A DNA stretch of 32,537 nucleotides, from positions 1,400 through 33,936 of the forward strand of contig MGPS01000010.1 in the NCBI GenBank assembly GCA_001797495.1. Direction: 5' to 3'. The translations under genes and the position numbers were made by a program. Under the pieces are notes generated by a model. That model did not search any database, had not been told where the DNA came from, and saw only the letters and a list, made by a program, of their open reading frames with translations. Below are positions 8,786-30,300 of the stretch, one piece after another (the first letter of the stretch is position 1; each line of letters starts with the position of its first letter). The DNA is from Deltaproteobacteria bacterium GWC2_42_11. GTDB lineage: Bacteria > Desulfobacterota > GWC2-55-46 > UBA9637 > GWC2-42-11.

Positions 8786-9491
8786 ATTGTCAGTAAATAT
8801 TGACCATATTGCAACTGTAAGGCAGGCAAGAAGAGGAATAGAGCCAGACCCTGTTACAGGTGCAATGATAGCGGAGATTTCAGGTGCGGATGGGATAACA
8901 GTTCATCTACGCGAGGACAGGAGGCACATACAGGACAGGGACATGTTCTTATTAAAAAAGATGGTGAAGACCAAATTAAACCTCGAGATGGCTGCAACAC
9001 AGGAGATGCTAAAGATTGCGCTTGAGGTGAAACCATATATGGTAACAATTGTCCCTGAAAAGAGAGAGGAACTTACAACCGAAGGGGGTCTTGATGTAAG
9101 GACACACAGGGACTATCTTAAGAAATATACAGAGGCTATAAGGGACAGCGGAATAAATGTAAACCTGTTTATAAATCCTGAACCAGAACAGGTAAAGGCA
9201 GCACACATGGTAAATGCAAGTGGTATTGAGATACATACAGGCAGATATGCGGAACTTACTAATGAAAAAGATATAGAGGCAGAACTTATCCGGATAAATA
9301 ATGCTGTCCTGCTTGCATCTAAATTGAAACTATCTGTCCATGCAGGGCATGGGCTTGATTACAGCAATATAAAAAGGCTTACAGAGGTAAATGGGATTGA
9401 AGAATTTGCAATAGGGTTTTCCATAATTGCAAGGAGCATATTTGTCGGTATTGAAAGATCTGTAAAGGAGATGAAGGAGTTGATAGCATGA
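8778..9491 (+). CDS. pdxJ: Pyridoxine 5'-phosphate synthase PdxJ
   Basis: Closes the ring of vitamin B6 from 1-deoxyxylulose-5-phosphate and 3-amino-2-oxopropyl phosphate in the DXP-dependent pathway. The 237-residue protein opens with the family signature [12 protein letters not shown] (about 7-18). It continues with [14 protein letters not shown], the [16 protein letters not shown] loop and HAGHGLDY near the C terminus, all intact. The start overlaps glmM by 8 bases and the stop overlaps acpS in an ATGA arrangement. The glmM-pdxJ-acpS order is common in related Gram-negatives. Confidence 0.97.
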
Positions 9492-9844
9492 TACACGGCA
9501 TCGGCATAGATATTGTCCATATCCCCAAATTTAAAAATGCACTTTTGAAATGGGGGGATAGGCTTAAAGAAAGAATATTTACACTTAACGAACTTAATTA
9601 TTGTGAAAAAAGAGCATTCCCTGAACAACACCTTGCAGTAAGGTTTGCAACAAAAGAGGCGTTCTTTAAGGCATTGGGCAGTTTGGTGGGATTTAAAGAT
9701 ATTGAGGTTTTAAACGACGGCAGTAATAAACCATATATAAATGTAATTAATAAAAATGTAAAGTCTAAAAACCGTAGAACCTATTTAAGTCTTTCCCATG
9801 ACGGGGATTACTGTATTGCGCAGGTTTTAATTGAGGTTGTCTGA
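9488..9844 (+). CDS. acpS: Holo-[acyl-carrier-protein] synthase AcpS
   Basis: Transfers the 4'-phosphopantetheine arm from CoA to apo-ACP. This activates ACP for fatty acid synthesis and for the acyl-ACP-dependent enzymes LpxA and LpxD encoded later in the window. The protein is 118 aa, the usual size. The metal ligands Asp8 (GIGIDIV) and Glu57 (FATKEAFFKALG) are present, as is the C-terminal LSLSHDGDYCIAQV stretch. The start codon shares the ATGA with the pdxJ stop, indicating coupling. It is the last gene of this operon; the following gap of about 360 bases separates it from lpxC. Confidence 0.95.
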   Translation: MIHGIGIDIVHIPKFKNALLKWGDRLKERIFTLNELNYCEKRAFPEQHLAVRFATKEAFFKALGSLVGFKDIEVLNDGSNKPYINVINKNVKSKNRRTYLSLSHDGDYCIAQVLIEVV

Positions 9845-10161
9845 GTGTCTGCCTGTAAACGAATTGCTATCATGTTCAATCTAGGGGTCGTTTCATTTGT
9901 GCTTTATCTTGCTCTTTCCTGTATTTCTTTCCGCTTGGCACTTCATGCCCCTAAGTAGTACTAACTATTAGATAAAAGGACTATCTGTCTTAACAATAAG
10001 TGCTGATATTAAATATCTCTTGCCTTTTAAGCACATGGCATGTGGCAAAAAAGAGAATTTAGCAGATGCTAAGTTGTATTTATAATTATATTGTTTTATG
10101 ATAATAAAATACAATCAATTTAACTATCTGTATTTATTGAAATAATTCGTATAGGTAAATA
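9845..10161. other. Gene-free interval upstream of lpxC with several palindromes
   Basis: No convincing gene is present. The interval holds TAGGGG (9882-9887) and its complement CCCCTA (9948-9953), too far apart for a normal terminator. Two 13-bp palindromes (6-1-6) lie at 10005-10017 and 10032-10044, and an AT-rich imperfect palindrome at about 10090-10115. The interval leads into the sigma-54 promoter and probably carries its control sites. Confidence 0.45.
10032..10044. promoter_or_regulatory. Perfect 13-bp palindrome, possible activator site
   Basis: CACATG-G-CATGTG is an exact inverted repeat centred about 150 bp before the predicted start of lpxC transcription. That distance suits an NtrC-family enhancer-binding site. 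A second perfect palindrome, GATATT-A-AATATC at 10005-10017, lies 27 bp further upstream. The regulatory role is inferred from position only. Confidence 0.35.
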
Positions 10162-10177
10162 TGGCATGCTATTTGCT
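10162..10177 (+). promoter_or_regulatory. Sigma-54 (-24/-12) promoter of lpxC
   Basis: TGGCATG-N4-TTGCT matches the sigma-54 consensus TGGCACG-N4-TTGCW at every position but one, with exact spacing between the GG and GC elements. Transcription would start near 10188, about 15 nt before the lpxC ATG at 10203 and just upstream of its AGAAGG ribosome binding site. The upstream region is AT-rich and contains palindromes, as expected for an enhancer-dependent promoter. Confidence 0.7.
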
Positions 10178-10202
10178 TAAATTTTTATTAAGAAGGTATT
10201 TT

Positions 10203-11132
10203 ATGCAGAGACAGAAGACAATACGAGAGGCTGCAGGATGCAGCGGAACAGGGCTTCATACAGGTAAGCCTGTAAATATCAGGATACTCCCTGCTGATGA
10301 GGACAGTGGAATATCGTTTGTAAGGACAGATATACCGGGAAGACCTGTTATAAAAGCAGCATCTGAAAATGTGGTGGATACCCGCCTTGCTACAACAATA
10401 GGGAGAGGTAGTGTAACAATCTCCACAGTAGAGCACCTCCTGGCTGCATTTTATGGTATGGGTATAGACAATGCAATCGTTGAGGTTGGCTCCTGTGAAA
10501 TCCCCATAATGGACGGCAGCGCAGAGCCCTTCGTAAACCTTATCAGGGAGGTTGGGATGAGGGCTCAGAGAAAGCCTAAAAAGTTTATCATCATTAAAAA
10601 GCCCATAAAGGTAAGGGACGGTAAAAAGGTTGCAATCTTACTCCCGGCAAGAGACTTTAAAATAACATATTCCATAACTTTTGAACATTCTTTCTTAAGC
10701 GGGCAGTCTTTTTCAAAGATGTATTCAGACAAAATATTTATAAACGAGATATGCGGGGCAAAGACATTCGGGTTTTTAAAAGAGGTTGAATGGCTCCGTT
10801 CCCAGGGGCTTGCAATCGGCGGCTCTCTGGAAAATGCGATTGTCATAGGTGATACAAGCATTATAAACGCTGATTTATTGAGATATCCTGATGAGTTTGT
10901 AAGGCATAAGGTTTTAGACTGTATAGGAGACCTTTCCCTTCTCGGTGCAGGTGTAATAGGACATATCATAGCAGACAAGTCAGGACATTCACTCAACCAG
11001 AGGCTTGTCAGGAAGGTCATTGAAAGCCCATCAAGATGGAGTTATGCAGAAATCCCCGCTAATGGAGATGATGAAGAATACCTCTATTCTGAAGTCGGAA
11101 TATCCCCGTCACTCTGTTATGCCGCATCATAA
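10203..11132 (+). CDS. lpxC: UDP-3-O-acyl-N-acetylglucosamine deacetylase LpxC
   Basis: Zinc enzyme of the committed step in lipid A synthesis, removing the acetyl group from UDP-3-O-acyl-GlcNAc. The product is 309 aa. Zinc ligands are His78 (STVEHLLAA), His235 and Asp239 (RHKVLDCIGD), and the catalytic His262 is in SGHSLNQ. GTGLHTG near the N terminus is also conserved. The frame is open from an ATG at 10161, but that ATG lies on the sigma-54 promoter. The ATG at 10203 has an AGAAGG six bases upstream and gives the normal LpxC N terminus. Unlike the rest of the lpx genes it stands alone, about 10 kb from lpxD, with its own regulated promoter. FtsH, a known LpxC-degrading protease in other bacteria, is also encoded in the window. 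Confidence 0.96.
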   Translation: MQRQKTIREAAGCSGTGLHTGKPVNIRILPADEDSGISFVRTDIPGRPVIKAASENVVDTRLATTIGRGSVTISTVEHLLAAFYGMGIDNAIVEVGSCEIPIMDGSAEPFVNLIREVGMRAQRKPKKFIIIKKPIKVRDGKKVAILLPARDFKITYSITFEHSFLSGQSFSKMYSDKIFINEICGAKTFGFLKEVEWLRSQGLAIGGSLENAIVIGDTSIINADLLRYPDEFVRHKVLDCIGDLSLLGAGVIGHIIADKSGHSLNQRLVRKVIESPSRWSYAEIPANGDDEEYLYSEVGISPSLCYAAS

Positions 11133-17115: not shown

Positions 17116-17802
17116 TTGGAACTTATAAGAGTAGTAAACCTTTACAAGATATACGGAAATAAAGAGAAAGAAGTAAAAGTTCTTAAGGGTATAAACCTAT
17201 CGATATTAAAGAATGAGACAGTCGCTGTGCTGGGTGCTTCCGGTGTGGGCAAAAGTACTTTCCTCCATATACTCGGCGTGCTGGACAGACCTACATCAGG
17301 TGATGTTTTTTATAACGGGGAGGCGATATTTAAAAAGGATGACAGGAGCCTGGCGTATTTCAGGAACAGGAATATCGGCTTTGTATTTCAGTTCCATCAC
17401 CTCCTCTCTGAATTTACGGCCCTTGAAAATGTAATGATGCCGTTACTTATTGCAGGCATTGATAAGCAGATATCTGCAGAGAATGCAGAGCAGGTGCTGA
17501 CGGAGGTTGGGTTAAAAGAGAGACTTACACACAGACCCGGTGAACTCTCAGGCGGTGAACAGCAGAGGGTCGCTGTCGCAAGGGCGATTATACATTCCCC
17601 GAATGTGCTCTTTGCTGATGAACCCACAGGGAACCTTGATACGCATACAGGCGAGGAGGTTTTTAACCTGCTGCTCGAGTTGAACAGGGACAAGGGAATT
17701 ACCATGATAATCGTTACACACAATGAACGGCTTGCAGGCAGATTATCTAGGAAGATAATTATGGTTGATGGCAGTATATGCGAGAAAGGAGATGTAAATT
17801 GA
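17116..17802 (+). CDS. lolD: Lipoprotein-releasing ABC ATPase LolD
   Basis: Cytoplasmic ATPase that powers the LolC/E permease in moving outer-membrane lipoproteins to LolA. The protein has 228 aa. Walker A GASGVGKST is at 40-48, the signature LSGGEQQR at 144-151, Walker B VLFADE at 164-169, followed by PTGNLD and a conserved switch His in IIVTHN. Membership of the LolD/MacB ATPase group is clear. The start is TTG at 17116: an in-frame TGA at 17107 rules out anything earlier, and GGTGA at 17105-17109 has normal spacing. The stop overlaps the bamA start. Confidence 0.94.
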   Translation: MELIRVVNLYKIYGNKEKEVKVLKGINLSILKNETVAVLGASGVGKSTFLHILGVLDRPTSGDVFYNGEAIFKKDDRSLAYFRNRNIGFVFQFHHLLSEFTALENVMMPLLIAGIDKQISAENAEQVLTEVGLKERLTHRPGELSGGEQQRVAVARAIIHSPNVLFADEPTGNLDTHTGEEVFNLLLELNRDKGITMIIVTHNERLAGRLSRKIIMVDGSICEKGDVN

Positions 17803-20480
17803 AAAAGGTATTGTCTGCGGTATATATAATTCTTATAACAACCTTTTGTTTTTCAGGTCATGTCAGTGCAGAGGAGGTTATAAATGTTGCAGTCCTGCCT
17901 TTTGAGGTTCATTCACGGGAGGATATATCGGGTTTCAGGGTGCAGATGCTGGAGGCAATAGCATCGGGTATTGATGAGACAAAGGGGCTGATGGTTATTG
18001 GCGGTGAAAGGCTTAAAAAGGTTATACTCGAAAAGGGGGTCTCAATATTTGACGAGACTGCAGCAGGTATAATAGGTAAGGAATTGAAGGCTGATTTTGT
18101 GGTAATTGGGAGTATAACAAAACTGGGTAGGAGATACTCTATCGATGCAAAGGTCTTTAATGTATCACAGGGAAGGTTGTTGGTGCTTTCCTATATCGAA
18201 GGTGAAGATATAAAAGAACTTACCAGAAGGGCATATGACCTTTCATCCACAGTTTCAGGAGAGATGTTGAAAGAGGTGCTTGCTTTGGGTAAGGTGTTGG
18301 CTGAAACAGGCACTGTAGGAAAGATAAACATAACAGGCAACAGGAGGGTGGATACAGAGGCGATAACAGCAAAGATAAAAACAAAGGTTGGCGATAAATA
18401 TGACAGCGACCAGATAAGGGAAGACATAAAATCTATATATGATACAGGGTTCTTTGACGATGTGGTTGTTGACCTCACAGATACAGCAATCGGCAGGGAA
18501 ATCACTTTTATAGTAAGGGAAAGACCAATAATCAAACAAATAACTATAACAGGGAATAAGGAGTTAACTGAGGAGAAGATAAAAGAGTTCATAACACTTA
18601 AGACCAATACCACACTGAACAGGATAGTCTTGAGAGAGACCGCAGATAAGATAAAGGCACTCTATGCAAACGAGGGTTATTATCTGGCAAAGGTGGAACC
18701 TATTGTGAGTGTTGAAAACGATGTTGAGGCTCAGGTAAATTTTCAGATTGATGAGGGTGCGAAGGTAAGGGTTAAGAAGATAACGATTATAGGCAATCAG
18801 AAGATGCCTGAAAAAAAGATAAAGAAGGTCATGAACACGAGCGAGGCAGGCTTTTTTTCGTTTATAACCAAGTCCGGCACATATCAGGAATTCATATTCC
18901 AGAATGATTTAAACCTCATACTCGGCCAATATTACGATAATGGCTATATCCAGGCAAATATAACTGACTCAAAGGTTACAGTGACTGGTGACAAAAAATG
19001 GATTTATATCACAATAGCAGTATCTGAAGGAGAGCAGTTTAAAGTTGGTAAGGTTGATGTACAGGGTGATATATTAACTACAAAGAGGGAACTCATTGAA
19101 AAGGTAAAGACAAAGAGCGGAGATATCTTCAGCAGAAAGACTGTTGGACAGGACATTACAAAGATTGTTGATGTATATGGTGATGAAGGTTATGCAAATG
19201 CGGATATAAACCCTCTGACAGCACTTAACCTTGAGAACAGGACAGTTGACCTGACATTTGATATACATAAGGGCGAGCAGGTATATATAGAAAAGGTTAA
19301 TATAGCAGGTAATGTCAATACAAGGGACAAGGTGATAAGGAGGGAGGTTGAAGTTGCAGAGGGCGAACTCTACTCTTCAACAGGCATTAAGAGGAGCAGG
19401 AACAATTTAAGGAGGCTCGGTTATTTTGAAGATGTATCAATAACAACGCAGCCAGGAACTACAGAAAATAAAATGGTAGTTGATGTTGAGGTCAGGGAAA
19501 GACCCACAGGCTCATTTTCTATAGGGGCAGGTTACAGTTCTTCAGACAATTTTATCTTTACAGGTTCTATCTCTCAGAGAAATTTGTTTGGCACAGGCAA
19601 GATACTTAATCTGGATGCAACCCTTAGCAGTAAGACCCAGAGATATAACCTGAGTTTTACAGAGCCGTGGCTTTTTGACAAGCCTATCTCTGCAGGTATT
19701 GATATATTTAAGGTAACAAAAGAGTATGCTGACTTTACGCGGGATAGTAATGGTTTTGACCTGAGGTTTGGCTTCCCCCTTTACAAAAGGGATACAAGGG
19801 GGTACCTCACATATAAATTAGAACAGGTTGAGGTTACTGATGTTGCTGCAAATGCATCTCAACTTATAAAGGACCAGGAAGGAAAAAATATGATAAGCAG
19901 TATCACTGCAGCAGTACGGAGGGATACAAGGGATGATTTCTTTTTCCCTACAGAGGGTTCTGTAGTTAATGCTTCAGTAGAGTTTGCTGGTCTTGGCGGT
20001 GATGTCAATTTTGTTAAGTATGTCCTTGAAGGGGTAAGATATTTCCCGATGTCCTGGGATACTGTACTGGCAACAAGGGGTTTGGTGGGCTTCCTGCAAG
20101 GTTACGGCGGTAAGGAATCTCCTGTATATGAAAGGTTCTATCTCGGCGGTATAAACTCCCTGCGTGGTTTTGCAACTAGGTCTGTAAGCCCAAAAGACCC
20201 TGTTACAAATGAGTTGATAGGCGGAAACAGTGAAGCGCTGCTTAATATAGAATATGTATTCCCGATATTCCCTGAGCAGAAGTTTAGGGGGGTAATATTC
20301 TTTGACACAGGAAATGCATGGGATGACAGTTTCCTGAATGACTTAAGATATTCTGCGGGGATTGGTATAAGGTGGTTTTCACCTTTAGGACCCTTGAGGC
20401 TTGAGTGGGGTTATAACATGGACAGGAAGGAGGGTGAAAAGGCAAGTCAGTTTGAATTCAGTGTTGGTTCTGCATTTTAG
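17799..20480 (+). CDS. bamA: Outer membrane assembly factor BamA with extra N-terminal domain
   Basis: Central Omp85 protein that inserts beta-barrels into the outer membrane. I place the start at TTG 17799: it has AAGGAGA 7-8 bases upstream, overlaps the lolD stop, and yields a clean signal peptide ending HVSA. The earlier ATG at 17778 would add a charged heptapeptide. Residues about 26-160 are not part of standard BamA. They resemble the TolB N-terminal/FlgO-type fold, with VAVLPFEVHS, IGKELKADFVVIGSI and a YSIDAKVFNVSQGRLL strand pair. Five POTRA domains follow (about 173-243, 244-321, 322-412, 413-493, 494-568), then the barrel. The LRGF motif is near 788 and the last residue is Phe, the usual barrel sorting signal. 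Length of 893 aa is about 100 more than typical. skp follows after 39 bases. Confidence 0.95.
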   Translation: MKKVLSAVYIILITTFCFSGHVSAEEVINVAVLPFEVHSREDISGFRVQMLEAIASGIDETKGLMVIGGERLKKVILEKGVSIFDETAAGIIGKELKADFVVIGSITKLGRRYSIDAKVFNVSQGRLLVLSYIEGEDIKELTRRAYDLSSTVSGEMLKEVLALGKVLAETGTVGKINITGNRRVDTEAITAKIKTKVGDKYDSDQIREDIKSIYDTGFFDDVVVDLTDTAIGREITFIVRERPIIKQITITGNKELTEEKIKEFITLKTNTTLNRIVLRETADKIKALYANEGYYLAKVEPIVSVENDVEAQVNFQIDEGAKVRVKKITIIGNQKMPEKKIKKVMNTSEAGFFSFITKSGTYQEFIFQNDLNLILGQYYDNGYIQANITDSKVTVTGDKKWIYITIAVSEGEQFKVGKVDVQGDILTTKRELIEKVKTKSGDIFSRKTVGQDITKIVDVYGDEGYANADINPLTALNLENRTVDLTFDIHKGEQVYIEKVNIAGNVNTRDKVIRREVEVAEGELYSSTGIKRSRNNLRRLGYFEDVSITTQPGTTENKMVVDVEVRERPTGSFSIGAGYSSSDNFIFTGSISQRNLFGTGKILNLDATLSSKTQRYNLSFTEPWLFDKPISAGIDIFKVTKEYADFTRDSNGFDLRFGFPLYKRDTRGYLTYKLEQVEVTDVAANASQLIKDQEGKNMISSITAAVRRDTRDDFFFPTEGSVVNASVEFAGLGGDVNFVKYVLEGVRYFPMSWDTVLATRGLVGFLQGYGGKESPVYERFYLGGINSLRGFATRSVSPKDPVTNELIGGNSEALLNIEYVFPIFPEQKFRGVIFFDTGNAWDDSFLNDLRYSAGIGIRWFSPLGPLRLEWGYNMDRKEGEKASQFEFSVGSAF

Positions 20481-20519
20481 TATAAAAAGCACCAATTAAA
20501 ATTTTAGGAGGATTTAGAT

Positions 20520-21056
20520 ATGAGAAGAGGAATAATTTTTATGGCAGCAGTTTTATTATTGGTGTTTGCATCATATACGACTGCTGCAGAAGTGAAGATT
20601 GCTTATGTCAATCTGCAGAAGGCATTGAATGACTCAAATACAGGCAAGGATGCAAAGGCAGAGATGGCTAATGAGATAAAGAAGAGGCAGTTAGAGATAG
20701 ATGCAAAGCAGGAGGAACTCAAGAAACTAAAAGAGGAACTTGAAAAGAAGGGGGCATTATTAAGCAAGGAGGTAAGGGAGCAAAAGGAAGCAGAGTTCAG
20801 CAAAAAGAGTCAGGAATTCCAGAGGTCTTTTGTCCAGTCAGAGGATGTGCTGCGGAAAAAAGAGCAGGAATCTGTAAGGGAGATAATAAAGGAACTTGAA
20901 GAGATTGTTAAGGCAATGGCAAAGGAGAAGGGATATACATATGTATTTGAAAAGAATGAGAGCGGTATTCTATATGGACCTGCTGACTCGGATTTGACAG
21001 AAGAGATTGTCAAGAGGTACGATAAACAATACAAGAAAGATAAAGAAAAGAAGTAA
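20520..21056 (+). CDS. skp: OmpH/Skp-family periplasmic chaperone
   Basis: Periplasmic holdase that keeps unfolded outer-membrane proteins soluble on the way to BamA. The 178-residue precursor has a signal peptide (about 1-22, ending TTAA). The mature protein begins VKIAYVNLQKAL, the family start. Residues about 45-140 form a long Lys/Glu-rich coiled coil, the tentacles of the trimer. The C-terminal KGYTYVFEKNESGILYG returns to the body domain. A strong AGGAGG (about 20507-20512) precedes the ATG. The bamA-skp-lpxD-fabZ-lpxA order is widespread in Gram-negatives. lpxD starts 2 bases after the stop. Confidence 0.94.
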   Translation: MRRGIIFMAAVLLLVFASYTTAAEVKIAYVNLQKALNDSNTGKDAKAEMANEIKKRQLEIDAKQEELKKLKEELEKKGALLSKEVREQKEAEFSKKSQEFQRSFVQSEDVLRKKEQESVREIIKELEEIVKAMAKEKGYTYVFEKNESGILYGPADSDLTEEIVKRYDKQYKKDKEKK

Positions 21057-21058
21057 TC

Positions 21059-22105
21059 ATGGAAAAGAGCCTTAATGAACTGGCTAAACTTGTTAATGGT
21101 GATGTAATTGGCGATGGTTCTGTTTTGATAAAAGGGGTTGCAGGTATAGAAGATGCCGTAAGCGGACAGATAACATTTATTTCAAATCCAAAATATACAC
21201 GTCTGATATATAAAACAGAGGCATCTGCTGTTATTGCCTCTCCTGATATACTACAGTCATTAAAGGATAGAAATATACTATGTGCAAAGAATCCATACCT
21301 TGCATTTGCAAAGATACTTGAATACTTCACACCTAAACCAACACTCTACCAGGGGATACATCCAAAGGCAGAAGTGCATCCAAATACAGTAATAGATGCA
21401 TCAGTTTCAATATATTCCCATGTATATATTGAAGAAGGGGCAAGAATAGGTTCAGGGGTTGTCCTGTACCCTGGTGTCTATATAGGCAGAGATGTTTTTG
21501 TTGGAGATGACACAGTCATTTATTCCAATGTGTCTGTAAGGGAGAGGTGCAGAATAGGCAGCAGGGTTATTATTCATTGCAATTCTGTCATAGGAAGCGA
21601 CGGTTTTGGTTTTGCAAAGGAGGGTGTAAAACTATATAAAATCCCGCAGACAGGAGTTGTCAGGATTGAAAACGATGTTGAGATAGGTGCATGCGTCACA
21701 ATAGACAGGGCAACACTTGGCGAGACAGTCATAAAACGCGGCACCAAGATAGATAACCTTGTCCAGATTGCACATAATGTAGTAATCGGAGAGGATTCGG
21801 TTATTGTTGCACAGGTCGGCATATCAGGGAGTACCAGGATAGGGGATAGGGTTACACTGGCTGGGCAGGTGGGAGTGGCAGGACATATTGAAATTGGTAA
21901 TGATATCACAATAGGTGCAAAGTCAGGTGTTACACATGATTTGCCTGCAAAGGGTATATTCTCAGGAATGCCTGCAATACCTCACAGGGAATGGCTTAAG
22001 GCAGTTAACATATTCGCAAAACTCCCGGAACTCAGGAAAAAAATACTGGAACTGGAAAATAAGATAAAGGAACTGGAAGGAAAAGAGACTAGGGAGGTCT
22101 TATGA
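21059..22105 (+). CDS. lpxD: UDP-3-O-acylglucosamine N-acyltransferase LpxD
   Basis: Third enzyme of lipid A synthesis, adding a 3-hydroxyacyl chain from ACP to the free amine made by LpxC. The 348-residue protein has an N-terminal uridine-binding domain (ITFISNPKY). A left-handed beta helix of hexapeptide repeats follows (IEEGARIGSGVVLYPGV and many more). The catalytic histidine is His239 in VQIAHNV, the same number as in E. coli. A C-terminal coiled coil (LRKKILELENKIKELEGK) suits the trimer. The stop overlaps the fabZ start by 4 bases (ATGA). Confidence 0.96.
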   Translation: MEKSLNELAKLVNGDVIGDGSVLIKGVAGIEDAVSGQITFISNPKYTRLIYKTEASAVIASPDILQSLKDRNILCAKNPYLAFAKILEYFTPKPTLYQGIHPKAEVHPNTVIDASVSIYSHVYIEEGARIGSGVVLYPGVYIGRDVFVGDDTVIYSNVSVRERCRIGSRVIIHCNSVIGSDGFGFAKEGVKLYKIPQTGVVRIENDVEIGACVTIDRATLGETVIKRGTKIDNLVQIAHNVVIGEDSVIVAQVGISGSTRIGDRVTLAGQVGVAGHIEIGNDITIGAKSGVTHDLPAKGIFSGMPAIPHREWLKAVNIFAKLPELRKKILELENKIKELEGKETREVL

Positions 22106-22536
22106 TAGATATAAACGAGATATTGAAGATTCTGCCGCACAGGTATCCATTTTTACTTGTTGACCGAATTGTTGAATTTGAGGCAGGGAAGATGGCAAAA
22201 GGCATAAAGAATGTCACGATAAATGAACCCTTTTTCCAGGGACATTTCCCTGGACATCCGATAATGCCAGGCGTCCTTTTGATTGAGGCAATGGCACAGG
22301 TAGGCGGCATACTCGCATTCAAATCAGCAAATGTTGAAAACAAGGTAGTCTATTTCATGGGCATAGATAAGGCACGGTTCAGGAAGCCTGTAATGCCAGG
22401 CGACAGGGTAGAACTCCTGCTGAATGTCGTAAAAAACAGGGGTGATATATGGGTGTTCAAAGGTGAGGCGATTGTTGACGCTAAACTCGCTGCAGAGGCA
22501 GAGATTATGGCAACAATAATGGAGAGGAGGGGTTAG
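22102..22536 (+). CDS. fabZ: 3-hydroxyacyl-[ACP] dehydratase FabZ
   Basis: Hot-dog-fold dehydratase of type II fatty acid synthesis. It competes with LpxA and LpxD for hydroxyacyl-ACP, so its place inside the lpx operon balances phospholipid against lipid A supply. The 144-residue protein has ILPHRYPFLLVDRI at the N terminus. The catalytic pair is His48 (GHFPGHP) and Glu62 (LIEAMAQ). Its start is coupled to lpxD through an ATGA overlap. AGGAGG near its own 3' end is the ribosome binding site of lpxA. Confidence 0.97.
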   Translation: MIDINEILKILPHRYPFLLVDRIVEFEAGKMAKGIKNVTINEPFFQGHFPGHPIMPGVLLIEAMAQVGGILAFKSANVENKVVYFMGIDKARFRKPVMPGDRVELLLNVVKNRGDIWVFKGEAIVDAKLAAEAEIMATIMERRG

Positions 22537-22538
22537 AA

Positions 22539-23420
22539 ATGCAGGGACAGGGGGCAAACAAGACAAAAGATACAAATCTTAAGTCTTCGGTCTTAAGTCT
22601 AAAGTCTGCTATCCACCCTACAGCAATTATACATCCAAATGCTGAAATAGGGGAGTGTGTTGAGGTTGGTCCATATTCTGTTATCGGAGAGAATGTCAGG
22701 ATAGGGGACGATGTAAAAATATACCCACATGTGGTGATTGACGGCTGGACCACTATTGGCAAAGGATGCAGTATATATCAGTTTACATCCATAGGCGCCC
22801 CGCCGCAGGATTTAAAATTCGGAGGAGAGGCATCAGAGGTTATTATAGGAGAAAACAATACAATAAGGGAGTTTGTCACAATAAACAGGGCAACCAGCCA
22901 CGGCGGCGGCAAAACAATTATAGGTAATAACAATCTTCTGATGGCTTATGTCCATATAGCACACGACTGCAAGGTAGGAAACAATGTCATACTTGCAAAC
23001 GCAGCAACCCTTGCTGGGCACATTGAAATATCCGACCATTCAATAATAGGCGGACTTGTCGCCATACATCAGTTTGCAAGGATTGGCTGTTATTCAATAA
23101 TAGGTGGTGCATCAGCGGTTACACACGATATCCCGCCTTATGTTATGGCAGTCGGAAACAGGGCAAGACTATACGGTTTGAACAAGTTAGGTTTAAAGAG
23201 GCATGGTTTTTCAGTTGATGAAATAAAAGAGATTAAAGAGGCTTATGATATAATCTTCAGAAGCGGTCTTATGCTTGAAGAGGCTTTAAAAAAGGTTAGA
23301 GAAGAACTCAAAGACTCAAAACATGTAAATACCATGATAGAGTTTATCAGGAATTCAAAAAGGGGCATTACGAGACCGAGGTCTAAAAAGGAAGAAGGGG
23401 ATGAAACCGGAGAAGATTAA
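22539..23420 (+). CDS. lpxA: UDP-N-acetylglucosamine O-acyltransferase LpxA with repeat-encoded N-terminal extension
   Basis: First enzyme of lipid A synthesis, placing a 3-hydroxyacyl chain on O-3 of UDP-GlcNAc. It is a left-handed beta helix. The catalytic His142 (HIAHDC) equals E. coli His125. Gly190 aligns with E. coli Gly173, the hydrocarbon-ruler residue that permits a long (about C14) chain; chain length is inferred from this. AGGAGG at 22525-22530, 8 bases from the ATG, fixes the start. Conserved sequence (AIHPTA) begins only at residue 24. The extra residues 12-24 are encoded by five tandem heptamers (22574-22608), leaving the product longer (293 aa) than usual. The 3' end overlaps the following oxidoreductase gene by 20 bases. 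Confidence 0.95.
   Translation: MQGQGANKTKDTNLKSSVLSLKSAIHPTAIIHPNAEIGECVEVGPYSVIGENVRIGDDVKIYPHVVIDGWTTIGKGCSIYQFTSIGAPPQDLKFGGEASEVIIGENNTIREFVTINRATSHGGGKTIIGNNNLLMAYVHIAHDCKVGNNVILANAATLAGHIEISDHSIIGGLVAIHQFARIGCYSIIGGASAVTHDIPPYVMAVGNRARLYGLNKLGLKRHGFSVDEIKEIKEAYDIIFRSGLMLEEALKKVREELKDSKHVNTMIEFIRNSKRGITRPRSKKEEGDETGED
22574..22608 (+). repeat. Tandem heptamer repeat, 5 units, inside lpxA
   Basis: Five consecutive heptamers of the form NNRTCTN (AAATCTT, AAGTCTT, CGGTCTT, AAGTCTA, AAGTCTG). They sit between the start codon and the first conserved codon of lpxA, encoding residues 12-24. Confidence 0.75.
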
Positions 23421-24351
23421 GGTTGGAGTAGTTGGTGTGGGTTATCTCGGTAAATTTCATGCTGAAAAATATTCAAACATCCCGGAGGTCGAACTGACAG
23501 GTGTCGTTGATATTGATAAAAAGGCAGCAGATGAAACGGCACTGCGATTCAACACAAAACCGTTTTACAACTATAAAAATCTGTTCGGTAAAATTGATGC
23601 GGTAAGTATTGTTGTCCCGACTCATATTCATTATCCTGTTGCAAAGGCATTTATTGAAAAAGGGATAGACTGCCTTATAGAAAAACCGATTACCACAACC
23701 ATTGAAGAGGCTTCAGACCTTGTAAGTGAGGCTGAAAAAAGAGGTGTGATACTGCAGGTTGGTCATCTTGAAAGATTCAATCCTGCAATCACAGCACTGT
23801 CAGGAATAATTGATAACCCCATGTTCATTGAGTCTGACAGACTTGCACCATTTGACATGAGAGGAACCGATGTATGTGTTGTGCTTGATTTAATGATACA
23901 CGATATAGATATTATATTAAACCTTGTAAAAGCAGATATTAGGCGGGTAGATTCTGTGGGTATCCCTGTCATATCAAAGGAGGTTGACATAGCGAATGCA
24001 AGGATAGAGTTCAGCAACGGCTGTGTTGCAAATGTTACAGCAAGCAGGATTTCAAGAGAGAAACTCCGCAAGATGAGGTTATTCCAGCACAACGGATACA
24101 TATCAATTGATTTTATACAGCAGAAGATAACGATATTGAAGAAACCCACAGATACTGAAGGGGTATTCCCGAAGATAGGCGAGAATAATCTTGATATAGA
24201 AAAAGGGGATTCACTCCTCGCTGAGATAAAGGCATTTATTCATTCAGTTGCTGCAAGGACAGAGCCGCCTGTTACAGGGAAAGATGGAAAGAGGGCTTTG
24301 GAGGTAGCACTGAGGATTAAAGAATCCCTTAACGCAACCCTTCCACATTAA
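23401..24351 (+). CDS. Gfo/Idh/MocA-family NAD(P)-dependent oxidoreductase in the lpx operon
   Basis: A 316-residue protein with an N-terminal Rossmann domain (GVVGVGYLGKFHAEKY, about 8-24). The family's EKP motif (IEKPITTT) and the catalytic-domain segments QVGHLERFNP and DLMIHDIDIIL are also present. Such a gene between lpxA and lpxB is found in several phyla. The best-characterised relative in this position is GnnA, which oxidises C3 of UDP-GlcNAc so that GnnB can aminate it, giving amide-linked lipid A. No GnnB-type aminotransferase is in the window, so GnnA identity is only a possibility. The start has AGAAGGGG directly upstream and overlaps lpxA by 20 bases. Confidence 0.88.
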   Translation: MKPEKIKVGVVGVGYLGKFHAEKYSNIPEVELTGVVDIDKKAADETALRFNTKPFYNYKNLFGKIDAVSIVVPTHIHYPVAKAFIEKGIDCLIEKPITTTIEEASDLVSEAEKRGVILQVGHLERFNPAITALSGIIDNPMFIESDRLAPFDMRGTDVCVVLDLMIHDIDIILNLVKADIRRVDSVGIPVISKEVDIANARIEFSNGCVANVTASRISREKLRKMRLFQHNGYISIDFIQQKITILKKPTDTEGVFPKIGENNLDIEKGDSLLAEIKAFIHSVAARTEPPVTGKDGKRALEVALRIKESLNATLPH

Positions 24352-24353
24352 TA

Positions 24354-25496
24354 ATGGTTCAGAAAAAACTGCTAATAGTTGCTGGTGAGGCATCAGGCGA
24401 CCTTCATGGTTCAAACCTTATAATATCCATTCTTAGGATAGACCCTTCTGTTAAGACTTACGGCATCGGCGGCATAAGGATGACATCGCTCGGCTTTCAA
24501 TCTGTCTTTGATGCAGCAAATCTTGCTGTCGTAGGTTTGACAGAGGTTATATCAAAATTCCCTGTCATAAAAAGTGCATTTGATAAACTGAAAGATACCA
24601 TTGATAAAGACAGACCGGATTTGGTTGTACTCATAGACTATCCTGATTTTAATCTCCGTTTTGCAAAAAAGGTGAAAAAGAGGGGGATACCTGTAATCTA
24701 CTATATAAGCCCGCAGGTCTGGGCATGGAGAAAAGGGCGGGTTAAAAAAATTGCAAAACTCGTGGATAAGATGCTTGTAATATTCCAGTTTGAAGAGAAG
24801 ATTTATAAAGACGCTGGTGTGGATGTTGAGTATGTCGGACATCCGCTTGTTGATGAGGTTAAGTGCGGACTTTCAAGGATAGAGGCAAGGCAGGTCCTGG
24901 GCATAGATAAAGACAACGTGGTTGTTGCAATTGCCCCTGGCAGCAGGACGAGCGAAATCAGCCGTCTTATGCCTGTCATACTTGATGCTGCTGTTATAAT
25001 AAAGAGAGAAATCCCTTCTGCCATGTTTATACTTCCGCTTGCAGGCACCCTGGAACGCAGGTCTGTTGAGCGTTTTTTTAATAATAAAGAAATCCCTGTT
25101 AAAATATTTGAGAAGAGAATGTATGAGGTAATAGCAGCATCTGATGCGGCAATCGTTGCATCAGGCACTGCAACCCTGGAGACAGCGCTGCTTAAGACAC
25201 CTATGGTGGTTGTCTATAAAGTATCTCCGGTAACCTACTGGATAGGGAAAGTACTTGTTAATGTTGACAATATAAGTCTGGTGAACATAATCGCAGGCAG
25301 AAAGGTTGTGCCTGAATTGATACAGGGTGATGCAAACCAGGAGCGGATTGCAGGCGAGGTTTTAAATATATTGAAAAATGCTCATATTTCTAATAGGATG
25401 ACAGAGGATTTAAAAATGGTGCGGGAGAAACTTGGTAAAGGCGGTGCATCAAAGAAATCTGCAGAGATAATCTATAGAATGTTATCTTTAAAATAA
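24354..25496 (+). CDS. lpxB: Lipid-A-disaccharide synthase LpxB
   Basis: Membrane-associated GT-B glycosyltransferase of family GT19, joining UDP-2,3-diacylglucosamine to lipid X to form the beta-1,6 disaccharide. The 380-residue protein opens with LLIVAGEASGDLHGSNL. It contains SPQVWAWRKGRVKKI, FEEKIYKDAGVDVEYVGHPL and IAPGSRTSEI, then ASGTATLETAL and VVYKVSP in the nucleotide-binding half, all family hallmarks. Length is normal. It starts 2 bases after the oxidoreductase stop, with no Shine-Dalgarno of note, so translation is probably coupled. The exporter gene follows after 7 bases. Confidence 0.96.
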   Translation: MVQKKLLIVAGEASGDLHGSNLIISILRIDPSVKTYGIGGIRMTSLGFQSVFDAANLAVVGLTEVISKFPVIKSAFDKLKDTIDKDRPDLVVLIDYPDFNLRFAKKVKKRGIPVIYYISPQVWAWRKGRVKKIAKLVDKMLVIFQFEEKIYKDAGVDVEYVGHPLVDEVKCGLSRIEARQVLGIDKDNVVVAIAPGSRTSEISRLMPVILDAAVIIKREIPSAMFILPLAGTLERRSVERFFNNKEIPVKIFEKRMYEVIAASDAAIVASGTATLETALLKTPMVVVYKVSPVTYWIGKVLVNVDNISLVNIIAGRKVVPELIQGDANQERIAGEVLNILKNAHISNRMTEDLKMVREKLGKGGASKKSAEIIYRMLSLK

Positions 25497-25503
25497 CGGA
25501 TAC

Positions 25504-27285
25504 ATGAAACTCTATCTCAAAATTCTAAAATTTGTTGTGCCATACTGGTTTTATCTTGCAGGTGCGATATTATGCATGGCAGTCCTTGCACTTTCAACAG
25601 GCGCAATGGCGTATCTTATTGGTCCAATACTAAGGTTCCTTTTTACAAACGATGGGGGTGAAGTAATAAAAATTATACCGTTCGGCATACTGGATACTGA
25701 CAGGACCAAGATGACAACAGCCATACCTCTCGTGATTGTTGCAGTGGCAGTTATAAAAGGCGTTTCATTTTTTGGGCAGTCCTATTTGATGGGCTATGTT
25801 GGGCAGAGGGTAGTAATGGATATCAGGGAAGTGTTGTACAAGCATATACTGTCCCTTATGGTGCCGTTCTTTACAAAGACCCATACTGGCACACTCATTT
25901 CAAGGGTTACAAACGATGTGAACCAGATACAAAATACTGCTACAGATTCCCTTGCATCACTAATAAGAGAGAGTCTGACTATAGTTGTCCTTGCAGTCAT
26001 TGTTATTAAACAGGATTTTAAACTGGCAGTCGTTGCACTTATTGCCTTCCCATTTGCAATATATCCCATGATACGGTTTAGCAGAAAACTCCGCAAGGTA
26101 AGCACCCAGGGACAGGCAACAATGGGTATAATGACAGCATTACTTCAGGAGGCAATATCCGGTATAAGGATAGTGAAGGCATTCTGCATGGAGTCATATG
26201 AGGAAATTAGGTTTAATAAAGAAAGTAAAAGATTAAACAGACTTCAACTGAAATCAATAAAAGTGAGAGCAATCTCTGTGCCAATGATGGAGATGTTCGG
26301 CATTATTGGCTTTGCTGCCACAATCTGGTACGCATCATACAGGATAAATACAGGCGACCTTGCACCTGAAGGGTTCATATCATTCTTTGCGGCGGTACTT
26401 ATGCTCTATCAGCCGATAAGGTCGCTTAACGGTGTAAACCTTAATATACAAAAGGGGCTTGCTGCTGCCTCAAGGGTTTTTGAAATACTGGACATGCATG
26501 GAGAGGTAAGGGAACGAGATGGTGCTAAAGAATTAAACCGCATAAAAAGCGGCATAGAATTTAAAGAAGCATCTTTTATGTATGGCGATAAATGGGTTCT
26601 GAAAAATGTAAACCTTAAGGTAAGGGCAGGTGAAGTCATTGCAATTGTAGGGACAAGCGGGGGAGGCAAGACAACACTTGTAAACCTTATTCCAAGGTTT
26701 TATGATGTTGTGGACGGAGCGATACTCATAGACGGGATTGATATAAGGGATATAAAACTTAAGTCGCTCAGAGAGAACATTGCCATTGTCTCACAGCATG
26801 TAATACTCTTTAATGATACTGTGAAAAGGAATATTGCATATGGCGATTTTACAAAAACTGATGAGGAGATAGTCGCTGCTGCAAAGGCTGCGAATGCTCA
26901 TAATTTTATAGAAAAGATGCCGCAGGGTTACGATACACTTATTGGTGAAGGGGGTGTAAGGCTTTCAGGCGGCGAAAGGCAGAGACTTTCTATTGCGAGG
27001 GCGATACTGAAGAATGCACCTATTCTTATACTGGACGAGGCAACATCCTCCCTTGATACAGAGTCTGAGATAGAGGTGCAGAAATGCCTCAACAATCTTA
27101 TGCACGGCAGGACAACATTTGTCATTGCCCACAGGCTCTCCACTATAAGGGATGCGGACAGGATAATCGTTATAGCGGGCGGTATGGTGAAAGAAGATGG
27201 AAGACACGAAGAACTTTTGAGATTAAACGGAGAATATTCCCGCATATATGCAATGCAGTTCAGCGGAATTCACGGGGAGGTCTAA
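25504..27285 (+). CDS. msbA: Lipid A export ABC transporter, MsbA type
   Basis: A half-size ABC exporter of 593 aa: a six-helix membrane domain (about 1-320) fused to a nucleotide-binding domain. Walker A GTSGGGKTT begins near 383, the signature LSGGERQR near 486, and Walker B ILILDEATSSLD near 507, followed by the switch His in AHRLSTIRDADRI. MsbA flips core-lipid A across the inner membrane. The position between lpxB and the late lipid A genes supports that role over a generic exporter, though sequence alone does not settle it. The acyltransferase gene starts 2 bases after its stop, behind GGGGAGG. Confidence 0.93.
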   Translation: MKLYLKILKFVVPYWFYLAGAILCMAVLALSTGAMAYLIGPILRFLFTNDGGEVIKIIPFGILDTDRTKMTTAIPLVIVAVAVIKGVSFFGQSYLMGYVGQRVVMDIREVLYKHILSLMVPFFTKTHTGTLISRVTNDVNQIQNTATDSLASLIRESLTIVVLAVIVIKQDFKLAVVALIAFPFAIYPMIRFSRKLRKVSTQGQATMGIMTALLQEAISGIRIVKAFCMESYEEIRFNKESKRLNRLQLKSIKVRAISVPMMEMFGIIGFAATIWYASYRINTGDLAPEGFISFFAAVLMLYQPIRSLNGVNLNIQKGLAAASRVFEILDMHGEVRERDGAKELNRIKSGIEFKEASFMYGDKWVLKNVNLKVRAGEVIAIVGTSGGGKTTLVNLIPRFYDVVDGAILIDGIDIRDIKLKSLRENIAIVSQHVILFNDTVKRNIAYGDFTKTDEEIVAAAKAANAHNFIEKMPQGYDTLIGEGGVRLSGGERQRLSIARAILKNAPILILDEATSSLDTESEIEVQKCLNNLMHGRTTFVIAHRLSTIRDADRIIVIAGGMVKEDGRHEELLRLNGEYSRIYAMQFSGIHGEV

Positions 27286-27286
27286 G

Positions 27287-27945
27287 GTGAAAGATTTTTT
27301 AAACAGGGTTTTGCTGCTCGTTGTCCCGTACATCGGCTATCTTTTTATAAAACTTCTGGAAAAGACCATGAGGATTTCATATATAAACTTTGTGAGCATA
27401 TGGAAAGACTGGCAGGAGGGAAAGAAGTGTATCCTGGCATTCTGGCACGGCAGGCTTTCAATGATGCCCCTTATGTATAGAGGTTATGGAATTACTGTAC
27501 TTGTAAGTCAGCACAGGGATGGTGAACTTATAAGCAGGACTGTAAAGAGGTTCAATATAGAGTCTGTAAGGGGGTCATCTACCAGGGGATGGCTATCCGG
27601 TGTAAAAGGACTCCTTAAGGCAGCAAAAAGCGGTAGAGACCTTGCCATAACACCTGATGGACCAAAGGGTCCGAGGTGCAAGGTGCAGAGCGGGATAATC
27701 AATATTGCAAAGGCTACAGGACTCCCTATAGTACCTGTTGCTTTTTCTGCATCAAAAAAAAAACCTTGAAGAGTTGGGATGCCTTTATAATACCATATCC
27801 TTTTTCAAATGGGGTCTTTATATGCGGTGACCCGATAGCAGTATCTCCTGATTTAACCCCTGAAGAACTTGAAGATAAAAGGCTCTGCCTTGAGAAGATA
27901 TTGACTGATATAAACGAAAGGGCAGATAATTACTGGGTTCAATAA
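27287..27945 (+). pseudogene. DUF374 (LpxJ-like) acyltransferase, frameshifted at a ten-A run
   Basis: Start GTG 27287 has GGGGAGG six bases upstream. The first frame encodes a membrane-anchored acyltransferase: a hydrophobic N terminus, FWHGRLSMMPL (the HxxxxD-like site region), SQHRDGE, and TPDGPKGPRCKVQSG. It stops at 27767-27769, right after A10 at 27754-27763. The missing C-terminal part continues in the next frame (KSWDAFIIPYPFSNGV onward) to 27945. One extra A would join the two into a full DUF374 protein of about 219 aa. LpxJ of Helicobacter and Campylobacter, a Kdo-independent secondary lipid A acyltransferase, belongs to DUF374. The place between msbA and waaA fits such a role. It could be a true mutation, a homopolymer assembly error, or a site rescued by polymerase slippage. 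Confidence 0.8.
27754..27763 (+). repeat. Ten-A homopolymer at the acyltransferase frameshift
   Basis: A run of exactly ten A lies where the reading frame changes. Runs of nine or more A are known sites of RNA polymerase slippage and of replication and sequencing indels. Confidence 0.85.
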
Positions 27946-27954
27946 TATCTCTCC

Positions 27955-29271
27955 ATGATATTCTATTTATATAATATCTTAGTAAACCTGTCTTTTATTA
28001 TCCTCCTGCCATATTTCCTTTTCAAAATAATTTTTGCCGGAAAATACAGGAAAGGGTTATTCGAGAAGTTTGGTTTTATAGATTCTGATAAACTGAGAAA
28101 GACAGGCAAAAAGAGGGTATGGCTTCATGCAGTGTCAGTAGGTGAGACAAAGGCGGTTATACAACTGGTAAGGTTGCTTAAAAAGAAACATCCTGATGCA
28201 GATATAGTATTTTCTACGATGACACTTACAGGAAACATCATTGCCAATGAGAACCTGCTGTCATATGTTACATCGGTTATCTATTTCCCGCTTGACCTCT
28301 TATGGGTTGTTAAAAGGGTTGTGCAAAGAGTGTCGCCGGATATATTTATTGTCGCTGAAAAAGAGATATGGCCCAATATTCTGAATGTCCTGAAGGCAAA
28401 AGGTGTGCCTGTGGTTGTAGTGAACGGGAAAATATCTGACCGTTCGTTCAGGAGGTACCTCTTTTTTTCATTCTTTTTTAAATGTGTTTTTCAAAATGTA
28501 GCATTTTTTTGTGCCCAGACAGAGAGGGACAGGCACAGGGCTGTTGTACTCGGTGTCCCTGCAGAAAGGGTGTGTGTTACAGGTAATTTAAAGTTTGATA
28601 TGGAAATACCTGTGTGGACTTCTCCTGAAAGAGAGGAGATAATGCAGGCACTTGGGATAAGGGATTCAGATATTGTGTTTGTTGCAGGGAGTACACATGA
28701 CGGAGAAGAGGAGATAATACTGCATGTTTTTAGCAGGTTGAAGCGTGAATTACCGGGACTCAAACTCTTGATTGCACCAAGACACCCTGATAGATTTGAA
28801 GAAATTGAGAATTTAATAAAAAGCAAAGGCTTCTCTTTTTTAAAGAAATCCGATACTCATCACTCATCACTCATCACTCATCACTCCTTTGATGTCATAC
28901 TTCTTGATACAATGGGTGAACTCGGAAAGATGTTTGGACTGGCAACTGCCGCATTTGTTGGCGGCAGTCTCGTTAATATCGGCGGACACAATCTTCTAGA
29001 ACCAGTCCTTCACAAAAAACCTGTAATCTTTGGACAATTCATTCAGGACTACCGTGAAATTGCAGATATTCTTATAAAGAGCGAAGGTGGTATAATGGTA
29101 AGGGACAGCAGCGAACTTGAGGGGGTATTAAGGAAAATATTTCTGGATAGGAGACTTGCAAAGGAGAGGGGGGAGGCAGGATATAGGGTAATAGAGGAAA
29201 ACAGGGGTGTAACAAAAAAGTGTCTGGCAATAATAGAGAAATTCCTTAACAAAAATAGCATGTTAGCATGA
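27955..29271 (+). CDS. waaA: 3-deoxy-D-manno-octulosonic acid (Kdo) transferase WaaA
   Basis: Inner-membrane glycosyltransferase (GT30) that adds Kdo to lipid IVA. The 438-residue protein has a membrane anchor (about 1-28) and RVWLHAVSVGETKAV with the conserved acidic active-site region. FSTMTLTGN, the SPDIFIVAEKEIWPN segment, FVAGSTHDGEEE and the C-terminal DTMGELGKMFG...FVGGSLVNIGGHNLLEP follow. Residues 301-311 (THHSSLITHHS) come from 4.7 exact heptamers and form a non-conserved insert in a loop before the DTMGEL motif. There is no clear Shine-Dalgarno; the start lies 9 bases after the acyltransferase remnant. How many Kdo residues it adds cannot be read from sequence. Confidence 0.95.
   Translation: MIFYLYNILVNLSFIILLPYFLFKIIFAGKYRKGLFEKFGFIDSDKLRKTGKKRVWLHAVSVGETKAVIQLVRLLKKKHPDADIVFSTMTLTGNIIANENLLSYVTSVIYFPLDLLWVVKRVVQRVSPDIFIVAEKEIWPNILNVLKAKGVPVVVVNGKISDRSFRRYLFFSFFFKCVFQNVAFFCAQTERDRHRAVVLGVPAERVCVTGNLKFDMEIPVWTSPEREEIMQALGIRDSDIVFVAGSTHDGEEEIILHVFSRLKRELPGLKLLIAPRHPDRFEEIENLIKSKGFSFLKKSDTHHSSLITHHSFDVILLDTMGELGKMFGLATAAFVGGSLVNIGGHNLLEPVLHKKPVIFGQFIQDYREIADILIKSEGGIMVRDSSELEGVLRKIFLDRRLAKERGEAGYRVIEENRGVTKKCLAIIEKFLNKNSMLA
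28855..28887 (+). repeat. Exact heptamer tandem repeat (4.7 units) inside waaA
   Basis: ACTCATC is repeated four times exactly, then a five-base partial unit. It encodes residues 301-311 of WaaA. Gain or loss of one unit would shift the reading frame; three units would keep it. Confidence 0.9.
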
Positions 29272-29283
29272 AATCATAATAAA

Positions 29284-30300
29284 ATGTCTGAATATTTTAA
29301 GAATGTCATTCTCTTCCCATTGTATCTTATATCAATTCTGTATTATATAGGCATCAGGCTCAGGTCATTTCTCTATCATTCAAATATCCTCAAAACAAAT
29401 AAACTTCCGTGCATGGTTATATCCATAGGCAATATAACAGTAGGCGGAAGCGGCAAGACACCCATGACAATATACCTCTGCCGTGTGTTAACAGCAATGG
29501 ACAAAAAGGTTGTTGTCCTAAGCAGGGGATACAAAGGTAAATCAAAGGGCATTAATGTAGTGTCTGACGGGTGTAACATATTTATGACGGCTGATGAGGC
29601 AGGTGATGAGCCTTTTCTTATTGCGAGTAGTCTGAATGGTGTTCCTGTGATAATCAGCAGGGACAGATATTCAGCAGGGCTTTTTGCAATAGAAAAATAT
29701 AAACCCGATGTTATACTCCTTGACGATGGTTTTCAGCACATCAGGCTCAAGCGGGACATAGACATCGTGCTTGTTGATTCAATAAGAGGCTTTGGCAATG
29801 GATACCTCCTGCCGATGGGTATATTGCGTGAGCCTGTTGGCAGTATTAAGCGGGCTCATATTATCTTTATTAAAGGCAATGACATGGAGATAGTTAATAA
29901 AATAAGGGAAAATGGCATAAATGCACCAGTCGGATTTTTTGAATATATACCGCATAAACTTGTGAATATTACAGATGGTACAAGTATTGAGCCGCACAGG
30001 CTGAAAAATAAAAATATTGTTGCATTTGCAGGGATAGCAAACCCTGTTTCGTTTTCTAAAACACTTGAGCAACTAGGCGCTTTGATAAAACATTATATTG
30101 TTTTTTCTGACCACTATCAATATCTAAGCAGAGATATTGACAGGATAATGAAATCTGCAACTGATGCTGATTATGTTATTACAACAGAAAAGGATGCGGT
30201 AAAGATAAAGAACATCCTTGCTGAAAATATGGCAGTATATAAACTTGAGATAGAGGTTAAGGTTCATAATGAGCAGGAGTTTTTGAGATGGATTATATGA
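29284..30300 (+). CDS. lpxK: Tetraacyldisaccharide 4'-kinase LpxK
   Basis: Membrane-bound P-loop kinase that phosphorylates the 4' position of the lipid A disaccharide, giving lipid IVA, the WaaA acceptor. The 338-residue protein has an N-terminal membrane helix (about 8-28). The Walker A variant VGGSGKTP is at 53-60. LSRGYKGKSKG, DEAGDEPFLIA, LLDDGFQHIRLKRD and the C-terminal TTEKDAVKI motif, all characteristic of LpxK, are present. It starts 12 bases after waaA and overlaps the next acyltransferase gene by 13 bases. Confidence 0.96.
   Translation: MSEYFKNVILFPLYLISILYYIGIRLRSFLYHSNILKTNKLPCMVISIGNITVGGSGKTPMTIYLCRVLTAMDKKVVVLSRGYKGKSKGINVVSDGCNIFMTADEAGDEPFLIASSLNGVPVIISRDRYSAGLFAIEKYKPDVILLDDGFQHIRLKRDIDIVLVDSIRGFGNGYLLPMGILREPVGSIKRAHIIFIKGNDMEIVNKIRENGINAPVGFFEYIPHKLVNITDGTSIEPHRLKNKNIVAFAGIANPVSFSKTLEQLGALIKHYIVFSDHYQYLSRDIDRIMKSATDADYVITTEKDAVKIKNILAENMAVYKLEIEVKVHNEQEFLRWII

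Follow-up and report, generated by a model that had tools for sequence, protein, structure and literature searches.

How is transcription of lpxC set at this locus? LpxC is a target for antibiotics and catalyses the committed step of lipid A synthesis, which is tightly dosed. What is known of LpxC control comes mainly from Escherichia coli, where proteolysis through FtsH/LapB sets the amount of the enzyme. An earlier note, made from the sequence alone, had proposed that lpxC is driven here by a sigma-54 promoter under an orphan regulator of the NtrC family. We have examined this proposal in the window, i.e., the whole stretch of 32,537 nucleotides that was analysed, and in related draft genomes.

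The sigma-54 promoter and the start of lpxC

The reading frame at 10203-11132 is LpxC with certainty, and the 358-nt intergenic region between acpS (9488-9844) and this gene houses the element TGGCATGCTATTTGCT. The features are as follows.

10162-10177, + strand: sigma-54 -24/-12 promoter element TGGCATGCTATTTGCT, weight-matrix score 17.8 of 19.7, kept in 25/25 class lpxC upstreams
10188-10202, + strand: predicted 15-nt 5' leader with +1 at 10188, its placement inferred from the -12 element
10203-11132, + strand: lpxC coding sequence, 309 aa, PF03331 348.5 bits, TIGR00325 lpxC 306.8 bits

The element matches the -24/-12 consensus TGGCACG-N4-TTGCW, has the correct GG-N10-GC spacing and ends 25 nt before the lpxC start at 10203. 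With a weight matrix set by hand from the published consensus (maximum 19.7), the runner-up on the plus strand of the whole window scores 12.8, and TGGCATGCTATTTGCT is by far the top sigma-54 promoter match 5' of any gene in the window. Matches of such strength are expected by chance about 0.0004 times in the intergenic region and about 0.07 times when both strands of the whole window are counted. One match to the consensus among 32 kb does not by itself prove the point, however, because a comparable one sits antisense inside a coding gene: the perfect sigma-54-like sequence TGGCACAGAGATTGCT (score 17.4), at 26268-26283 on the minus strand within an msbA-like ABC transporter gene (25504-27285), is probably there by chance. 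The case that the lpxC element is real therefore rests on conservation. It is found, with a score of at least 13 and at most 60 nt from the start, in all 25 readable same-class lpxC upstreams (our own included). Among control ORFs from the same loci, 3/249 scored, and all three were lpxC itself, which leaves 0/246. In addition, rpoN is encoded in the genome (PF04552, E 2.9e-61) and in 23/23 relatives. Thus, the proposed sigma-54 promoter is supported by its match, by the conservation of the element and its internal spacing at lpxC of relatives, and by the presence of rpoN, and lpxC carries a conserved promoter of this type with a predicted transcription start.

The start codon was settled along the same lines. 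An upstream ATG at 10161 overlaps the -24 element and would prepend 14 residues, MACYLLKFLLRRYF, an extension absent in the LpxC homologues compared. Because of both observations we place the start at 10203, and the earlier note was right to reject the longer form. A ribosome binding site, AAGAAGG, lies at 10190-10196 inside the predicted leader. Leaders are 15-28 nt in the window's own family, and a ribosome binding site is seen in the window and in L083. In most class members (L002-L015, L085-L104) the first in-frame lpxC ATG comes 2-7 nt past the predicted sigma-54 start, so their message would be nearly leaderless.

The window also holds a long cluster at 17778-31250 with bamA, ompH/skp, lpxD, fabZ, lpxA, an oxidoreductase, lpxB, an ABC transporter, a KDO transferase, lpxK and an acyltransferase. 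The weight matrix gave no strong sigma-54 match on the cluster's own strand; in the window, only lpxC stands apart under sigma-54. The apparent loss of lpxC in G011, G017, G023, G033 and G040 is probably due to assembly gaps, since lpxB is retained.

Paired upstream sites and a candidate enhancer

The 29 distinct class lpxC upstreams were anchored on the -24 box for element discovery. This returned a pair of sites, which we list with the two palindromes to which the earlier note had drawn attention.

10005-10017, no strand: palindrome 1, GATATTAAATATC, not conserved
10032-10044, no strand: palindrome 2, CACATGGCATGTG, right arm overlapping site 1, not conserved as a palindrome
10041-10057, + strand: putative upstream activating site 1, TGTGGCAAAAAAGAGAA, score 26.1 with a matrix from the class only, next best in the window 13.2
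10072-10089, + strand: putative upstream activating site 2, AGTTGTATTTATAATTAT, 31 bp 3' of site 1, score 8.2

The paired sites recur in 29/29 class upstreams, where they lie at -98 to -114 relative to the -24 box, with TGTTGYAAAAAAGAGA most frequently 98-103 bp 5' of the box, and the spacing from site 1 to site 2 is 29 bp in 21 of the 29 and 30-32 bp in 7. Scores come from a site matrix that was built from class upstreams with the window's own family left out. Site 1 is of the consensus type TGTTGYAAAAAAGAGA and is its sole exact copy in the 1.75-Mb genome; GTKGYAAAAAAGAGA likewise has a single zero-mismatch occurrence genome-wide, at site 1. One further copy with one mismatch, at G000:C24:29192, was rejected, as it is not clearly upstream of any gene. 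The class form of site 2 is TGTKGyATTTATAAcACA. In the window its left half is retained and its right half has diverged, so that the site is weak, and in the same-family L083 and L084 it is strong (22.7 and 21.6).

Classic NtrC-type enhancers have a pair of sites roughly 100-150 bp upstream, with about three helical turns from one to the other. By position and conservation, the pair at 10041-10057 and 10072-10089 is enhancer-like and a candidate for this type. The earlier note had assigned that role to the palindromes. Both are indeed present and perfect, and two were observed where 0.18 are expected (p ~0.01), but an alignment of L082-L084 shows no conservation of either in the two same-family genomes; what is conserved is the other pair. 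Most class members also have an IHF-like YAANNNNTTGATW match about 31 bp 5' of the -24 box, between the paired sites and the promoter, which is not clearly present in the window itself.

Two other readings of this region have to be weighed. The -24/-12 match could be due to chance or be unused, with lpxC transcribed from a sigma-70 promoter or by read-through from acpS. There is a candidate, TTAGCA-N16-TATAAT (10/12) at 10059-10086, and the antisense match inside a coding gene demonstrates that a perfect sigma-54 sequence can arise elsewhere. We nevertheless hold this to be highly improbable: shuffled sequence averages 2.1 sigma-70-like sites, the TATAAT part falls in the variable stretch of site 2 (AACACA in many relatives), and the sigma-54 element has been retained 25/25 while the flanking DNA has largely diverged between relatives. 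It is also conceivable that a repressor or a nucleoid protein occupies the upstream sites and that the activator acts from solution or from elsewhere. The IHF-like match speaks for this, since several proteins may bind there. The pair, 29-31 bp apart and ~100-150 bp upstream, has the usual layout of an NtrC-type enhancer, however, and we regard a repressor or nucleoid protein as quite unlikely.

The NtrX-type regulator and its fusions to LpxC

The genome encodes 12 full sigma-54 activators. When these were compared with lpxC loci, only the NtrX type was found to adjoin lpxC in other bacteria. This regulator combines PF00072, PF00158 and PF02954 (HTH_8, Fis-type HTH) with an intact GAFTGA loop. 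It is encoded in the operon DUF4390-ntrY-ntrX, together with its partner NtrY (PF19312 NtrY_N, HAMP, PAS, HisKA, HATPase). We call it NtrX-type rather than a certified equivalog because its score with NCBIfam NF051870 (NtrX equivalog), 532.9 bits and the best of all families, is under the cut-off of 600. Here ntrX is not adjacent to lpxC. The class member G016 has the gene order lpxC-DUF4390-ntrY-ntrX, and by coordinates ntrX follows lpxC at ~2-4 kb, in the same orientation, in Geomonas, Desulfuromonadales, Desulfarculaceae, Syntrophaceae and several Desulfobacterales. A single NtrX ortholog (61-84% identity) is present in 21 of the 24 relatives searched, the other three being two fusion genomes and G011. 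No paired sites were found at the ntrYX operon, so autoregulation was not seen.

Among the NtrX proteins of the class, several show GAFTSA, GSFTSA or GAFTNA in place of the GAFTGA loop, and own-class genomes with GAFTSA or GAFTNA still keep the lpxC element; position 5 of the loop varies among known activators, with GAYTDA and GAFTHA listed (PMC4641369). Outside the class, the loop is intact (GAFTGA, GSFTGA, GAFSGA) in 7/7 genomes with a sigma-54 lpxC, including Geomonas, Syntrophaceae and Desulfarculaceae, and degenerate (GAIPGA, GAIAGS, GAFPGA, GAFPEA, GFSSEM, GAFEEA, GSFSSA) in 7/8 genomes without the element, a contrast that amounts to few independent events because most of these eight are Desulfobacterales. 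Some genomes (L044, L060) have a sigma-54-like element at lpxC and no NtrX ortholog, which, like the loop variants of the class and the weak site 2 of the window, speaks against NtrX as the activator.

A sigma-54-dependent lpxC could also answer to another of the 12 activators, of the NtrC, Zra or pilus type, and the linkage of NtrX to lpxC elsewhere would then reflect a different regulatory mode. The sheer number of activators leaves room for this, ntrX is not beside lpxC here, and the binding specificity of NtrX is only predicted. Yet linkage or fusion to lpxC is limited to NtrX orthologs, and nearly every class genome checked has one such ortholog; we therefore find it unlikely that another activator is the cognate one. 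NtrX of the DUF4390-ntrY-ntrX operon is the likely activator of the lpxC promoter, and the regulator would then not be an orphan, as the earlier note had it, but part of a complete NtrYX system.

We suggest the following mechanism. The histidine kinase NtrY would respond to its signal by phosphorylating NtrX, which would bind the paired sites at 10041-10057 and 10072-10089. Its GAFTGA loop would then contact sigma-54 RNA polymerase and fire lpxC from the gene's own promoter at 10162-10177. Other families of the phylum have kept NtrY, but its partner has merged into LpxC, either as REC-LpxC or as NtrX-LpxC without GAFTGA.

Among the linkage evidence, the tie between NtrX and lpxC is strongest in these fusions. 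In ~90 of 395 sampled phylum genomes, LpxC forms one protein with the NtrX receiver or with whole NtrX, usually encoded directly after ntrY. In ~66 genomes from 17 families the match runs from the receiver into LpxC (REC-LpxC, ~430-480 aa), with PF00072 and PF03331 in one reading frame. In ~20 further genomes only the LpxC part was matched, in ORFs of 630-820 aa; the eight of these that were inspected are all REC-AAA+-LpxC with no recognisable GAFTGA loop (whole NtrX-LpxC without GAFTGA, ~700-745 aa). Examples are:

L152:6569-7885, + strand: LpxC fusion
L160:913-2223, + strand: LpxC fusion
L194:1152-3332, + strand: LpxC fusion

Families f2 (same order) and f6, which have no sigma-54 lpxC, carry DUF4390-ntrY-[NtrX receiver + LpxC] instead, the f6 contig beginning inside ntrY. 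Both parts of the fusions retain their motifs, with a DIWMP-type phospho-acceptor motif in 52/52 fused receivers and the RHKxLDxxGD metal (zinc)-site motif in 50/52 fused LpxC domains. In the receiver tree, which has few columns and weak inner forks, the fused receivers fall into a single clade with NtrX (SH-aLRT 99), and the other own activators lie outside it. In the LpxC tree, fused domains form one clade and separate LpxC the other (100/100). Assembly artefacts are excluded as a source, as fusions occur in dozens of genomes, some within one contig. The single-contig genome G417 has two REC-LpxC genes, L199:3754-5184 (-) and L200:4072-5490 (+). The f2/f6 fusion receiver (L152-L159) groups with own-class NtrX and its LpxC part with phylum-wide fused LpxC, a conflict that possibly points to a second fusion or recombination.

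In the fusion lineages the probable target of the signal is the enzyme itself, whose activity would change on phosphorylation of the receiver. Response regulators with enzymatic output domains are familiar from GGDEF, HD-GYP and CheB proteins, and REC-LpxC resembles them in joining a receiver to an enzyme; our literature search brought up no case of LpxC in that role. Taken as a whole, we consider it highly probable that NtrY/NtrX fires lpxC through the paired sites and the sigma-54 promoter, and that the link is old and has become a fusion elsewhere. With less assurance, we lean towards an NtrYX that was ancestrally dedicated to LpxC control. It would use the sigma-54 promoter here, and elsewhere it would have lost its loop beside lpxC, or been fused or shortened to the receiver, with the phosphorelay acting on the enzyme.

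Known systems and implications

FtsH/LapB likewise controls LpxC, but by post-translational proteolysis and not by transcriptional or receiver-domain control. As a kind, control of lpxC by sigma-54 has a known precedent in Desulfovibrio vulgaris. In D. vulgaris Hildenborough the GAFTGA response regulator DVU2934 binds lpxC (DVU2917) as its sole target (PMC3333781), and DVU2934 is listed in the sigma-54 regulome (PMC4641369). The circuit proposed here likewise puts a GAFTGA response regulator on lpxC in a sigma-54 regulon, with DNA binding experimental there and predicted here. Unlike our system, the D. vulgaris operon has an HD-GYP regulator, and DVU2934 is not named NtrX (PMC3333781, PMC4641369); we set the two side by side by description. 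The DVU2934 motif was reported only in close Desulfovibrio relatives, and neither a class-wide paired site nor a fusion was described.

NtrYX of Alphaproteobacteria belongs to the same two-component family and affects the cell envelope, lpxC transcripts and LPS (PMC7240162, PMC12444477). In Rhodobacter sphaeroides it lowers lpxC transcripts, indirectly (PMC7240162), which argues against activation by NtrYX. No NtrX site lies at lpxC there, and a GCA-N9-TGC site is found elsewhere (PMC7240162, PMC12444477), whereas here a sigma-54 promoter and a putative enhancer sit at the gene. A sigma-54-type promoter upstream of lpxC has likewise been predicted in Leptospira, as a single prediction with no regulator given (PMC12655853). 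Sigma-54 and RpoN go unmentioned in a review of lipid A regulation from 2025 (PMC12444477), and our literature search found neither an assignment of NtrX to lpxC nor the conserved enhancer.

If the conserved sigma-54/NtrYX circuit is true, whole bacterial classes would govern their outer-membrane synthesis by way of a membrane sensor, and NtrYX, commonly annotated as nitrogen regulation, would gain a specific job. The circuit might, speculatively, contribute to the essentiality of rpoN in Geobacter and Myxococcus, the cause of which is unsettled (PMC2725144). With REC-LpxC, a single purified protein is enough to test direct phospho-control of LpxC. Outer-membrane synthesis appears to be governed by one sensor, either via the gene or via the enzyme; if NtrYX was ancestrally dedicated to LpxC control, this would be a traceable shift from transcriptional to enzyme-level control within one pathway.
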